Positions 13,594 to 33,396 of a DNA stretch of 64,000 bases are shown piece after piece. How positions within the stretch are numbered: position 1 is the stretch's first letter; each line of letters opens with the position of its first letter. Both the position numbers and the translations under genes were made by a program. The DNA lies in assembly GCA_030535455.1 (NCBI GenBank), contig JAUNJY010000015.1:1-64000 (forward strand), in the 5' to 3' direction. A model generated the notes under the pieces. The model saw only the letters and a list, made by a program, of their open reading frames with translations. It was not told the origin of the DNA and made no database searches. The stretch comes from a bacterium (GTDB lineage: Bacteria; Bacillota; Clostridia; Lachnospirales; Lachnospiraceae).

Positions 13594-14964
13594 ATGGATG
13601 GTGTTAATGGATCACAAATGCTTATAGGTCTAGGTATTGGACTTATCATTTTAATTTTACTAATCTTAAAGACGAAAATTCACGTATTTTTATCATTAAT
13701 AATTGCGTCCTGCATCATTGGACTTATTGGGGGAATGAATCCAGACGATGTTGTTACAGCAATTACAAATGGATTTGGTGGAACACTTGGAAATATCGGT
13801 ATCATCATAGGTATGGGCGTTATGATGGGAAAAGTATTTGAACTTTCAGGTGCTGCAAACCGTATGGCAAAGACATTTTTAAAAATGTTTGGGAAGGGTA
13901 ATGAGGAACTTGCATTATCATTAACAGGATTTTTAGTATCCATTCCAATCTTTTGTGACTCAGGATTTGTAATCCTTTCACCACTTGCAAAAGCAATTTC
14001 AAAACGTACGAAAAAGTCAATTGTAAGTCTTTCCATAGCACTTGCATCAGGCTTAGTAATTACACACACATTAATACCGCCAACTCCGGGTCCACTTGGA
14101 GTTGCGGGAACATTTGGCATCGATATCGGTCATTTCCTGCTATTGGGGATTATCGTTGCGCTTCCTATGGCGGCGGCAGCTATGATTTATGGAAAATGGC
14201 TAGGTACAAAGATTTATCAGCTCCCAGCCGAAGAGGGAGAAGGATTTATCCGTCCAGAAAATCAAGGGACAATGAATATGTTGTTTGATTTAGAGGATGA
14301 AGGAAAGATGCCATCAGCATTGGAAGCATTCTTGCCACTTATTGCTCCAATCCTATTAATTTTATTTAACACAGTATTATCCGCATTGGGAATGACAGAA
14401 GGTGCATTTGCCATTTTAATCTTCCTTGGAAAACCAATTATAGCAGTTGCAATCGGCTTAATTCTGGCAATTTATATTCAGACTCGTGGAACATCAAGGG
14501 TGGATGTTATTGCAAGTCTGGAAGAAAGTATCCAGTCAGCCGGAATTATTATATTAGTAACTGGTGGTGGCGGTGCTTTAGGTCAGGTAATTAAGACAGC
14601 CGGAGTTGGTGACTATATTGCAACAGGCATTGCATCCACATCCATACCGGTCATATTATTGCCATTTATCATTGCCACATTAGTTCGATTTGTACAAGGT
14701 TCTGGAACCGTTGCAATGGTTACAGCAGCAGGCATTACGGCTCCAATCGTAGCTGCAGCTGGCGGAAATATGGTATTAGGCGCTCTTGCAGCATGTATCG
14801 GTTCCTTGTTCTTCTCTTATTTCAATGACAGTTTTTATTGGGTAGTAAACCGTCTTAGTGGAATTACAGAGACAAAAGAACAAGTACGTGTATGGTCGAT
14901 TACAACAACGATCGCATGGGCAACAGGCTTAGTCGAACTATTAATATTAAATATGTTTATGTAA
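13594..14964 (+). CDS. GntP-family sugar-acid:H+ symporter
   Basis: A 456-residue membrane protein with about 12-14 hydrophobic segments. GntP-family marks include VSIPIFCDSGFVILSPLAKA, ITHTLIPPTPGPLGVAG and the C-terminal FVQGSGTVAMVTAAGI / FSYFNDSFYWVV motifs. The family imports gluconate and related aldonates; here threonate or erythronate is inferred from the neighbouring kinase and dehydrogenase. It is the last gene of the operon, ending just before a terminator that occurs twice. Its N-terminus lacks a signal peptide. Confidence 0.92.
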   Translation: MDGVNGSQMLIGLGIGLIILILLILKTKIHVFLSLIIASCIIGLIGGMNPDDVVTAITNGFGGTLGNIGIIIGMGVMMGKVFELSGAANRMAKTFLKMFGKGNEELALSLTGFLVSIPIFCDSGFVILSPLAKAISKRTKKSIVSLSIALASGLVITHTLIPPTPGPLGVAGTFGIDIGHFLLLGIIVALPMAAAAMIYGKWLGTKIYQLPAEEGEGFIRPENQGTMNMLFDLEDEGKMPSALEAFLPLIAPILLILFNTVLSALGMTEGAFAILIFLGKPIIAVAIGLILAIYIQTRGTSRVDVIASLEESIQSAGIIILVTGGGGALGQVIKTAGVGDYIATGIASTSIPVILLPFIIATLVRFVQGSGTVAMVTAAGITAPIVAAAGGNMVLGALAACIGSLFFSYFNDSFYWVVNRLSGITETKEQVRVWSITTTIAWATGLVELLILNMFM

Positions 14965-14968
14965 ATAA

Positions 14969-15000
14969 GAAGCAGCTACTTGCATGGCAGGTAGCTGCTT
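14969..15000 (+). terminator. Terminator hairpin, copy 1 of a 32-bp direct repeat
   Basis: AAGCAGCTACcTGCcATGCA-type hairpin: AAGCAGCTACTTGC folds onto GGCAGGTAGCTGCTT. This copy has only CTTC after the stem, with no long T run. The identical 32 bases recur at 15235-15266 with a T run, so this copy may be a poor terminator. Confidence 0.75.
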
Positions 15001-15234
15001 CAGCTTGTCGACAAAGTCGACAAGCTTTGGATGAAATCAGGATTTCATCCAGAACCGAGGGAAATGATTAGTGCTCACTCGTGCAAGTCCTTCTAAAACA
15101 GGACCTATTCGCACTAATCCGATATCCGAAAAGCGCGGTTTCCGGATATCGATTCCAATGAAAACCTACGGTTTTCAAACTTTCCTCTAAGCAGTGCGTT
15201 GGAGTGGATGCAAGATTTCATTTGTCTACAGTCT
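15001..15234. mobile_element. 234-bp multi-hairpin intergenic element between duplicated terminators (family A copy 1)
   Basis: The element lies exactly between two identical 32-bp terminator copies. It folds as a chain of hairpins: AGCTTGTCGAC arms (15002-15012/15016-15026), GGATGAAAT arms (15029-15037/15042-15050), ATTAGTGC arms (15067-15074/15111-15118), CGATATCCG arms (15120-15128/15143-15151) and AAAACC-tac-GGTTTT. Bases 15116-15194 match 33274-33352 at 76 of 79 positions. There is no open frame. Mobility is inferred from the flanking duplication and the second copy, not from any transposase. Confidence 0.6.
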
Positions 15235-15270
15235 GAAGCAGCTACTTGCATGGCAGGTAGCTGCTTTTAT
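15235..15270 (+). terminator. Terminator of the sugar-acid operon, copy 2 of the 32-bp direct repeat
   Basis: Bases 15235-15266 repeat 14969-15000 exactly and are followed by TTTTAT, the expected end of an intrinsic terminator. This is probably the original operon terminator. Confidence 0.8.
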
Positions 15271-15391
15271 TTGTAGTGGGGAGAGATAGTGTTGATACTT
15301 ATTTGTTAAGCATCAAGGCAGTTAGTGATAATAAATTTATATTCTGTTTAATATATTTAAAAAAATAGGTTTTTAATGAGTAGGTGCATGT
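15271..15391. other. AT-rich upstream region of the surface-protein cluster
   Basis: About 120 bases of AT-rich DNA with no recognisable promoter that I would defend. The ribosome site before ATG 15392 is weak (GTAGGTG). Confidence 0.3.
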
Positions 15392-16375
15392 ATGCCAAAT
15401 GTCTCCTTTCTTCCAACTGAATTTACTTATATTGCAAGCAATGCTGTAAATAGCAACTTTAGTTCCTATTCATCACTTCGAATTGGGAGAACTTTTGGTG
15501 CAAATACGTGTATTCAATATAATAGTCTGCTACGCTTTGATTTGAATTTTCAGAAATGCAATTCAGAGATGGTAGAACAGGCATTTTTGTATATACCTCT
15601 TTCTAGAATAAGGGCGAATACATTTCTACGAGAGCGTCTTCTGACGGTTTCCACATTTGATAGCGGTGTACCATTTAGTGCTCTGACTTGGAATACCATG
15701 CCCCCTTGCAATGAATTACTGACTCATAGAATTACTAATTCTGAGATAAGGGAACATTGGATCGTTATTAATATTACAAATCAGGTGATACGATGGCTAT
15801 GCAATTATGACTGTAGTGCAAATATTATGATATCTACACTTACATCAGGATTATCCGCTATAATTCCAAGGCCATATTATGGATGTTCACCGTATATTGA
15901 AATCACATATTTTAATGACTTAAGCAGTCAGAATGAGAATAATCAGTTAAATCCAGCTCTTAAATCCTCTGATTTTCTATATTTAGAAGCAATCAACCAT
16001 AAATTAGAGATCATTGAGCAAAAACAAAAGTTTCCTTTTGATGTAGCGATCCCCACAACAGGAAGGAATATTACATTTAACAGGCAGGAAAATGCAATCA
16101 TAATAAGGAAAAAAGGATTTTATCATTGCTCTTGGATTTTTAATATTCAGGGAACAGGAGATCTGAATTTTATCGAAGTAGGATTTATTCAAAATGGAAA
16201 AGAGAATGTACATAGTGGTACGGTGTTTATACAGACCCCAGGACAGATTACCCATCAATTTGTATTATTAGTGGATACGGTCCCTGCAAAGTTTACAGTA
16301 TGCAATGCTTCCGTTGCGTTGCTCCAACTAGGCAATAGGGAAGAACAGGGCTCCCTTATTATACAGAAACTATAA
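15392..16375 (+). CDS. DNRLRE-domain protein with a C-terminal C1q/BclA-like beta domain
   Basis: A 327-residue protein. Residues about 8-180 resemble a DNRLRE domain (a beta-sandwich seen in surface or spore proteins): NSNFSSYSSLRIGR, YNSLLRFDL, ALTWNTMPP, WIVINITNQVIRWL and PYIEITYF. Residues about 215-325 form a second beta-rich domain (FDVAIPTTGRNITFNRQENA, GFYHCSWIFNIQG) like the trimeric TNF/C1q/BclA C-terminal fold. No signal peptide is evident, a trait shared with exosporium and spore-coat proteins. It heads a three-gene paralogue cluster; spore or cell surface is inference. Confidence 0.6.
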   Translation: MPNVSFLPTEFTYIASNAVNSNFSSYSSLRIGRTFGANTCIQYNSLLRFDLNFQKCNSEMVEQAFLYIPLSRIRANTFLRERLLTVSTFDSGVPFSALTWNTMPPCNELLTHRITNSEIREHWIVINITNQVIRWLCNYDCSANIMISTLTSGLSAIIPRPYYGCSPYIEITYFNDLSSQNENNQLNPALKSSDFLYLEAINHKLEIIEQKQKFPFDVAIPTTGRNITFNRQENAIIIRKKGFYHCSWIFNIQGTGDLNFIEVGFIQNGKENVHSGTVFIQTPGQITHQFVLLVDTVPAKFTVCNASVALLQLGNREEQGSLIIQKL

Positions 16376-16450
16376 AAATAGAAATTGGGTAATGAACCAA
16401 TTTGTACCTAAAGAATACAATGAAGTAAAAACAAATATAGGAAGAAAGAT

Positions 16451-17371
16451 ATGGCAGTTTTTGGTATTCAATATATAAGACAGGGGGCTGCAGTTACTAC
16501 AGCAGGTGCTCATGATGTGGCAGCCAATGCAGTAGTGGAATTTGATACCCCACGAAGAGAAGAAACAGGTATGGCAACATACACTGATGGTGTCTTCACG
16601 TTTGTAACCGCTGGTGATTATTATATAGCATGGCAGGTTGCTGTAAAGACAGCAGTAGGGCTAGAAGGCCAGCAATTTGATTTAGAGTTTTCTGATGGAG
16701 AAACGACACCTACTGTAGTGAAATATCCATCCAGCAGTGGACTAAAGAATGGTCAATTATCAGGCACAGCATTAATCAGGATACCTAGTATAGGTGGTAC
16801 AGAAACATGGACCATAAAGCTAGTGAACTCAGGTGCAAACAGTACACTAAATGATACTGTTGAGTATAATGCAAGCATAAGTATTCTAAAGGCAGTACAA
16901 TCCTTACAGGGAGTAGTATTCCAATGTCTACAGACAGCAGAAACAGATGATGTGACAGTAGCTTCTGATGCAGCAGTTCTGTTTGATACTACAGCAACTT
17001 ACGCAGGTACAAATACAAATATCACATTAACCGCAGCTACTGGAACAATTACGGTTGCACAACCAGGAAGATATTTATTTGACTGGGCAGTAAATGTTGT
17101 CGGTTCAACTGGAACAAATGCTGTTAAATTTAAATTAGAGAAGTCAGAGCCAGGCGAACCAGCTACAGTTACTGAGGTTGGACTGAGCGAGTCACCTGTA
17201 AATCAGCCTTATACGGTTTATGGAAGTACAGTTGTTGATGTAGGCGTTGCAAATACTACATTTACTTTGAAAAATGCAAATATAGCAGGCGTGACGCATA
17301 CATTATCAGGCGTAAGCGAGGCAGGCGCTGATCCATTAAGAGCCTGGATCCGTGTTGTTGAGGTAGCATAA
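16451..17371 (+). CDS. Tandem C1q/BclA-C-terminal-like beta-domain protein (paralogue 1)
   Basis: A 306-residue acidic protein of two homologous beta domains, about 1-150 and 152-306. Each contains an FDT strand, a pattern of G(R/D)YxxxW(A/Q)V(A/N)V and a LSGTALIRI or STVVDVG strand. The layout resembles trimerising C1q/TNF-like domains of BclA-type glycoproteins, but no collagen-like GXX repeat is present. It has no signal peptide or anchor. It is closely related to the next gene: 46 of the last 60 residues are identical. Function is unknown; a surface fibre or coat role is inference. Confidence 0.6.
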   Translation: MAVFGIQYIRQGAAVTTAGAHDVAANAVVEFDTPRREETGMATYTDGVFTFVTAGDYYIAWQVAVKTAVGLEGQQFDLEFSDGETTPTVVKYPSSSGLKNGQLSGTALIRIPSIGGTETWTIKLVNSGANSTLNDTVEYNASISILKAVQSLQGVVFQCLQTAETDDVTVASDAAVLFDTTATYAGTNTNITLTAATGTITVAQPGRYLFDWAVNVVGSTGTNAVKFKLEKSEPGEPATVTEVGLSESPVNQPYTVYGSTVVDVGVANTTFTLKNANIAGVTHTLSGVSEAGADPLRAWIRVVEVA

Positions 17372-20373: not shown

Positions 20374-20422
20374 TCGTCAATTCATGGGTGAAATAATCCC
20401 CAATCTAATATCTAAAAATCTG

Positions 20423-20465
20423 AAGCGATGTCTTTCTAAATAATATGAAAGGTATCGCTTTTTTC
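20423..20465 (+). terminator. Intrinsic terminator of the hemerythrin operon
   Basis: AAGCGATGTCTTT (20423-20435) pairs with AAAGGTATCGCTT (20448-20460), followed by a T run. A degenerate repeat copy starts at the T run. Confidence 0.85.
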
Positions 20466-20513
20466 AATGAAATCCTATAGTTTTCAAACTTTCCCCTAAG
20501 CACTGCGCAGTCT
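20464..20513. repeat. Dispersed post-terminator repeat, family A copy 3 (degenerate 3' part)
   Basis: About 50 bases resemble 15153-15202: CAATGAAA-(A/T)CCTA-GTTTTCAAACTTTCC followed by CTAAGCA(C/G)TGCG. Only the 3' half of the element is present, again directly after a terminator. Confidence 0.55.
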
Positions 20514-20631
20514 GAGCATTCACCTGAAATACATATAATGTAAAAATAAACAAGGTTTTAACTAATGAAAACGACAAAATTCGACGATATATGATAATGG
20601 GATAAAAACAAAAGAGAAAGGAAATAAGCGT

Positions 20632-33232: not shown

Positions 33233-33262
33233 AGAAAGGCCGTAGACATCTACGGCCTTTTA
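33233..33262 (+). terminator. Intrinsic terminator after the FMN_bind lipoprotein gene
   Basis: AAAGGCCGTAGA pairs with TCTACGGCCTTTT across a very short loop. A family A repeat begins at the last T of the run. Confidence 0.85.
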
Positions 33263-33352
33263 GCTTGTCGACAAATCCGATATTCGAAAAGCGCGGTTTC
33301 CGGATATCGATTCCAATGAAAACCTACGGTTTTTAAACTTTCCTCCAAGCAG
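33262..33352. repeat. Dispersed post-terminator repeat, family A copy 2
   Basis: Begins with AGCTTGTCGACAAA like 15002-15015 and then jumps directly to a block (33274-33352) matching 15116-15194 at 76 of 79 bases. The internal 100 bases of copy 1 are absent. It lies immediately after a terminator. No coding frame. Confidence 0.75.
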
Positions 33353-33396
33353 CCCCCTAGTCATTACAAAAATGGTAAGGGATAAGTTGTGAACGA

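Follow-up and report, generated by a model that had tools for sequence, protein, structure and literature searches.

Why should the hairpin at the end of a bacterial gene be present twice, with further hairpins between the two copies? The question is raised by one site in the window, a stretch of 64,000 nucleotides from the genome of a member of the Lachnospiraceae. The 32-base sequence GAAGCAGCTACTTGCATGGCAGGTAGCTGCTT is found both at 14969-15000 and at 15235-15266; the two copies are 100% identical and their starts lie 266 bases apart. An earlier note on this DNA had recorded the repeat and the consecutive hairpins within it, and had suggested either that a small non-coding element had entered a terminator and duplicated this target, or that recombination had produced the arrangement. 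The first suggestion has held, with many copies at different terminators, and the second is not needed. There is little doubt that the element is a MITE with the whole hairpin as its target-site duplication, and the transposase that moves it is very likely of the IS1182 type.

The doubled hairpin and its insert

The features of the site, and of a second copy of the element in the window, are as follows.

13594-14964, plus strand: GntP-family permease gene, directly before the left hairpin (PF02447, 403 bits)
14969-15000, no strand: left copy of the doubled terminator stem-loop (symmetric hairpin at 14970-15000); the T-stretch after this copy is now gone
15000-15236, plus strand: MITE, 237 bp, TCAGCTTGTCGACA...TGTCTACAGTCTGA
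15000-15013, plus strand: left terminal inverted repeat, TCAGCTTGTCGACA
15002-15026, plus strand: hairpin H1, including part of the left terminal repeat (inverted repeat, fold, covariation)
15028-15051, plus strand: hairpin H2 (inverted repeat, fold, covariation)
15066-15119, plus strand: hairpin H3, with internal loops (inverted repeat, fold, covariation)
15120-15151, plus strand: hairpin H4 (inverted repeat, fold, covariation)
15159-15177, plus strand: hairpin H5 (inverted repeat, fold, covariation)
15223-15236, minus strand: right terminal inverted repeat, TCAGACTGTAGACA on the minus strand, identical to an IS1182-family element end
15235-15266, no strand: right copy of the doubled terminator stem-loop, followed by a T-rich stretch
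33236-33259, no strand: terminator hairpin beside the degenerate second copy
33260-33353 (right limit approximate), plus strand: degenerate second MITE copy, with the left end, H4 and H5 kept and the right end lost

The insert had been put at 234 bp (15001-15234). Its place stands, and its limits are now refined to a mobile unit of 237 bp at 15000-15236. This unit shares one base with the left 32-mer and two with the right one, because the element's terminal T and A are also ends of the doubled hairpin. Since the permease gene ends at 14964, the doubled hairpin is most simply the terminator of that gene. On the other side, the genes at 15392-17371 look like those of a CBM96-type protein and of a protein with weak BclA_C and C1q matches.

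The 298-base stretch that includes both hairpins folds at -136.5 kcal/mol (z -11.8), and none of 200 shuffled versions is equally stable. Between the repeats, five inverted repeats follow one another at 15002-15177. Among open reading frames of at least 80 amino acids, the sizes covered by the listing, none overlaps 15000-15236; at 237 bp the insert is short and without a transposase gene, as a MITE is. Rfam gives no family at gathering score anywhere in the window, and no group II intron family either. A known RNA was also sought with relaxed Rfam limits in 14900-15350; the nine matches, mostly to microRNA families, plus rli62 and SurA, all lie far below gathering scores and were rejected.

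Copies of the element and their fold

Searched with the 298-base stretch, the window's genome (G000) yields at least 40 scored places, the site itself included, at 83-100% identity over the matched part. Most of these matches span nearly the whole insert and some are partial. The number, which represents the many dispersed copies expected of a MITE, is a lower bound: 122 candidate places were found and 40 scored, and the window's own copy at 33 kb is outside the 40. The sequence TCAGNNTGTNGACA has 80 matches in this genome, compared with 3 for its reversed control.

Copies also occur in two of three congeners, so that both the genome itself and its relatives contain the insert that the earlier note had proposed to look for there. 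G002 has many copies, of which the near-full-length ones are 84-90% identical. G001, a single contig of 4.52 Mb, gives 36 matches, with identity near 70% in the longer of them. In G003, which is 76% complete, the congener search found no MITE copy. The near-identical copy that had been noted 18 kb away is such only in part: at about 33260-33353 the element is degenerate, with an internal deletion and without its right end or right hairpin.

Several fragments and neighbours of the element can be described. At 20465-20515 in the window a remnant that retains a piece of H5 and the element's right end, with CAGTCTGA as its last bases, directly follows another terminator-like hairpin; 20381-20490 matched the fold model at 9.4 bits only. 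Elsewhere in G000 (L067-L101) truncated element ends adjoin hairpins, some of them right ends only and some left ends only, and at two of these loci (L084, L086) both ends are present in units of about 20-50 bp. At L009, L018 and L026 the end of another MITE-like unit lies immediately ahead of the left hairpin, a tandem arrangement such as would arise by entry into a hairpin doubled earlier. In the flanks of L013, L019, L030, L081 and L091, another dispersed palindromic repeat (about TAGGAAA..TTCGAGNAGCCTCC) adjoins the same hairpins.

Full copies do lie beside other duplicated terminators. A doubled stem-loop, the target-site duplication of a MITE, brackets 60 of the 72 near-full-length copies: 29 of 33 in G000, 11 of 15 in G002 and 20 of 24 in G001, counted per genome, such that an orthologous insertion may be counted in two genomes. 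A duplication was called where a direct repeat of at least 15 bp and at least 80% identity, limits set by the author, abuts both ends. Its length in the MITE copies has a median of 28 bp and a range of 17-38 bp. When the left flank of one copy was compared with the right flank of another, a direct repeat appeared once in 3000 pairs (the first 3000 of 5112 ordered flank pairs). Of 75 cores, L239, L082 and one L018 start were set aside before the flank test as misaligned or as chance end pairs, which leaves the 72 copies.

The duplicated sequences vary from copy to copy, and their common feature is the hairpin. TTTT stands within 10 bases after the right hairpin in 33 of the 60 cases, so not every target need be a terminator; AAAA precedes the left hairpin in 24 of the 60. 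Together with the IS1182 elements described below there are 59 exact duplications (31 MITE, 28 IS). In 51 of them the first base is A and the last is T; in 52, at least 6 bp counted inward from the outermost base are self-complementary. The element itself has T as its first base and A as its last, so the outermost pair may belong to either element or target. Among the 12 of 72 copies that failed the test, L002 and L037 resemble gapped or diverged duplications by eye; the other ten (L005, L034, L042, L052, L054, L065, L061, L105, L228, L232) show no such resemblance.

Evidence for insertion can also be provided by a relative in which the site is empty. Two sites were checked, and one is clean. 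Where G000 has hairpin, MITE and hairpin (L008, on contig C3), G002 has the same flanks, one terminator and no MITE. At the other site (L006, on G000 contig C125) G002 has the flanks and no MITE, and the terminator region is not alignable. The earlier note had held that an insert present in all relatives, with no other copies anywhere, would point to an old structural RNA; copies are in fact numerous and one empty site exists, and yet the window's own site is occupied in G002. There, on contig C11, an orthologous permease gene (87%) is followed by a similar hairpin and the element's left end, after which the contig stops. With this nearest relative occupied here as well, either the insertion is older than the split or there were two insertions. 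Great age would make it surprising that in G000 one hairpin is identical to the other while the orthologous hairpin of G002 differs from both. Gene conversion between the copies would account for the identity, with a second insertion as the alternative.

The interior of the element has a fold that is kept across copies. In an alignment of 37 sequences (36 distinct) from three genomes, limited to the first 182 bases, 98.4% of 1835 cells hold standard pairs; sliding the partners lowers this to 29-45%. These sequences are a subset of 70 cores, five of the 75 having been left out of the alignment. Both sides have changed in 20 of the 51 pairs, a count of few events since many of the double changes divide G001 from the other two genomes. 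Four of five covariation measures exceed all of 500 shuffles; the count of further pair types is not exceptional, with 472 of 500 shuffles as high. In a strand comparison meant to tell RNA from DNA, there are within H1-H5, helix P left out, 203 G-T cells versus 40 A-C cells, 185 of the 203 coming from four column pairs. Helix P itself, which the predicted fold of the window copy places as a closing helix around H3-H5, was rejected as poorly kept (256 Watson-Crick of 490 cells across copies).

A single copy in another genus of the family (L282, 47.4 bits) keeps the five-hairpin plan with largely different stem letters, and is likewise bracketed by a duplicated hairpin. The fold search, which took one genome per genus, used stricter filters and scored 13 candidates per genome, such that weak copies may be missed, found the fold in 2 of 200 family genomes, the window's own included. 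Selection on folded RNA or on folded DNA would each produce such a pattern, as would hairpin-perfecting mutation (quasi-palindrome correction) that imitates covariation.

IS1182-family elements with matching ends

A MITE is expected to have terminal repeats related to those of an autonomous element, and here they are: the MITE carries TCAGnnTGTnGACA at both ends, TCAGACTGTAGACAAA being the end of IS1182 elements. At three positions the left end of the MITE departs from the IS end. The earlier note had seen no encoded transposase, which is explained by the element being non-autonomous; a matching IS1182-family transposase is complete in other Lachnospiraceae and present as a fragment in G003.

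The window's genome assembly has no IS1182 transposase match. Among 120 Lachnospiraceae genomes, 42 have PF13751, the window's genome not being one of them. Of 30 PF13751 loci taken from that search, two, both from outside the window's genus, have the exact end motif. At L141 the transposase gene lies between matching ends with a 30-bp hairpin on both sides, while at L136 a 24-bp hairpin stands on both sides of a unit that is more complex and contains an additional hairpin block. NF033551 assigns both transposases to the IS1182 family (465.5 bits for L141 and 435.6 for L136, at a cut-off of 270), and the L141 transposase has the domains PF13751 and PF05598. An uncultured Lachnospiraceae bacterium (L148) has a protein 100% identical to that of L141, with the same flanking hairpin.

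A scan of GTDB genomes for relatives kept the best 80 of 95 loci. Of these, 33 are without an end pair at 1.5-1.8 kb and three more without one flank, leaving 44 that can be tested. The same hairpin is on both sides in 32 of the 44, by the same limits of 15 bp and 80%, and in 28 exact cases the duplication is 20-35 bp long. ISfinder gives long direct repeats for the IS1182 family, which would fit duplication of a hairpin. On inspection of the folds, 11 of the 12 failing copies carry a hairpin at each side, two different ones, the product that would be expected of recombination between copies. In the IS copy L159 neither end has a hairpin, and the direct repeat, AGTTTACT, is 8 bp long. This looks like an ordinary insertion into an unstructured site; this transposase group can perhaps also insert in the ordinary way. 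With this exception the target is a hairpin (palindrome), as for some members of the IS1182 family; given L159 and the failing copies, the elements may strongly prefer hairpins without depending on them absolutely.

Closer to the window, the MITE-like terminal sequence is also found in another repeat, at places where contigs of G000 end. The duplicated hairpin of one such contig end, C110, leads to a second, C5, so that the pair carries both ends of another element with one and the same hairpin outside each; its interior is not found in the G000 assembly. In the congener G003 a transposase fragment is 61% identical to the L141 protein over residues 323-462, and the element end beside it matches the C5 stub at 50 of 55 positions, which ties an IS1182 element to the window's genus. 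The contig-end stubs suggest that such a partner may be present in the window's genome as well.

Proposed insertion at stem-loops, and its alternatives

A model for the insertion can be drawn from these elements. Judging from shared ends and shared behaviour, the MITE would be moved by an IS1182-type transposase. The enzyme would pick a stem-loop, often a rho-independent terminator, by shape rather than by sequence; we infer that what it recognises is a cruciform or hairpin, extruded at the time of insertion. DDE transposases join the 3' ends of the element to the target, and repair generates the duplication. In this case each of the two 3' ends would be joined to one 5' foot of the hairpin, the two feet lying on opposite strands, and repair would copy the entire stem-loop, making the target-site duplication the hairpin itself. 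In a cruciform the two 5' feet would be adjacent at the four-way junction for any length of arm, which would explain a duplication that varies from 17 to 38 bp. The 32-bp duplication in the window had been noted as long for a target site; it is long because it spans the whole stem-loop.

The insertion would be nearly silent. Since the left copy has lost its T-stretch, the upstream gene would read through it and stop at the right copy, and the MITE would become part of that gene's 3' UTR. The gene ending would thus probably keep working after insertion.

Known systems provide parts of this picture. According to PMC5678879, Siguier et al. described an IS1182 family in which palindromic sequences are the target of some members. 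Its DDE transposases (NF033551, PF13751 plus PF05598) are those carried by the like-ended elements, which also sit at hairpins; the MITE differs in having no gene. For IS1272 and TnSha1, members of the family in staphylococci, two papers give stem-loop targets without a common sequence, some of them terminators, and report that the stem-loop is lost and the target not duplicated (PMC5678879, PMC4923244). The present MITE, in contrast, keeps the stem-loop and doubles it. One possible pathway drawn in PMC5678879 has joining at the 5' feet of the stem-loop, which would double the whole of it, and the proposal there for IS1272 has joining at the 3' feet, with the stem-loop lost. The present data fit the 5'-feet pathway.

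Other bacterial MITEs, such as RUP, BOX, QMITE and Chunjie, are also short, gene-less, multicopy and structured; unlike the present one, none is described as doubling a terminator in the sections of PMC10969869 drawn on here. IS1182 has zero occurrences in the text of that review, the same sections of which place IS1111 in QMITE2. Among the matches listed in an open-access literature search, neither whole-terminator duplication by an IS1182-type element nor the present MITE was recognised. IS1111/IS110-type and REP-targeting elements also have palindromic targets, with another transposase class and a specific target repeat. We know of no case in which they duplicate a whole hairpin.

Could the locus have arisen without a DNA transposon? 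An old structural RNA gene family, duplicated along with its terminator, would have the kept interior fold (98.4% paired, slid controls 29-45%), and the insert would indeed be transcribed ahead of the right terminator. That different terminators are doubled at both sides of 60 of 72 copies, that the terminal repeats are common to the MITE and IS1182 elements, that one site is empty and that the window holds no Rfam family at gathering score all argue against such a family, which is very improbable. Retrotransposition of a transcript ending at the terminator, as by a group IIC intron or a SINE-like element, would explain the association with terminators and the numerous truncated copies. Against it, either end may be truncated, terminal inverted repeats with a direct repeat on both sides are features of DNA transposons, and no group II intron family is found in the window at Rfam gathering score; this origin is extremely unlikely.

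Palindromes are recombinogenic, and replication slippage or recombination at palindromes could have doubled the terminators with the element as a passenger, a reading for which the copies with different hairpins on their two sides might speak. Slippage would neither place one constant-ended repeat inside many unrelated terminators nor make IS1182 elements act alike, and its probability is close to negligible. Insertion of a MITE by an IS1182-type transposase is the preferred explanation.

An element of this kind is known, and its variant features are that the hairpin is doubled and not lost, that the duplication varies in length and that the interior fold is kept. DDE transposases usually cut at a fixed stagger and so leave target duplications of a fixed short length. 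In the present elements the length varies with the hairpin that is entered, a sign that DNA structure guides the transposase; the 59 exact natural duplications are material for testing this. Within one family, hairpin doubling can thus be set against the hairpin removal of IS1272. By doubling the terminator that it enters, a parasite could stay at the ends of genes and do little harm.

The interior has no gene and keeps its fold, which raises the testable question of what the fold is for. It is conceivable, on balance doubtful, that the five hairpins are a folded RNA or single-stranded DNA selected for its shape and spread by a shape-reading transposase, and are more than transposon debris. 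If so, the fold might serve transposition, or might, at many genes, keep the element from doing harm or turn it into a useful portable 3' UTR module.
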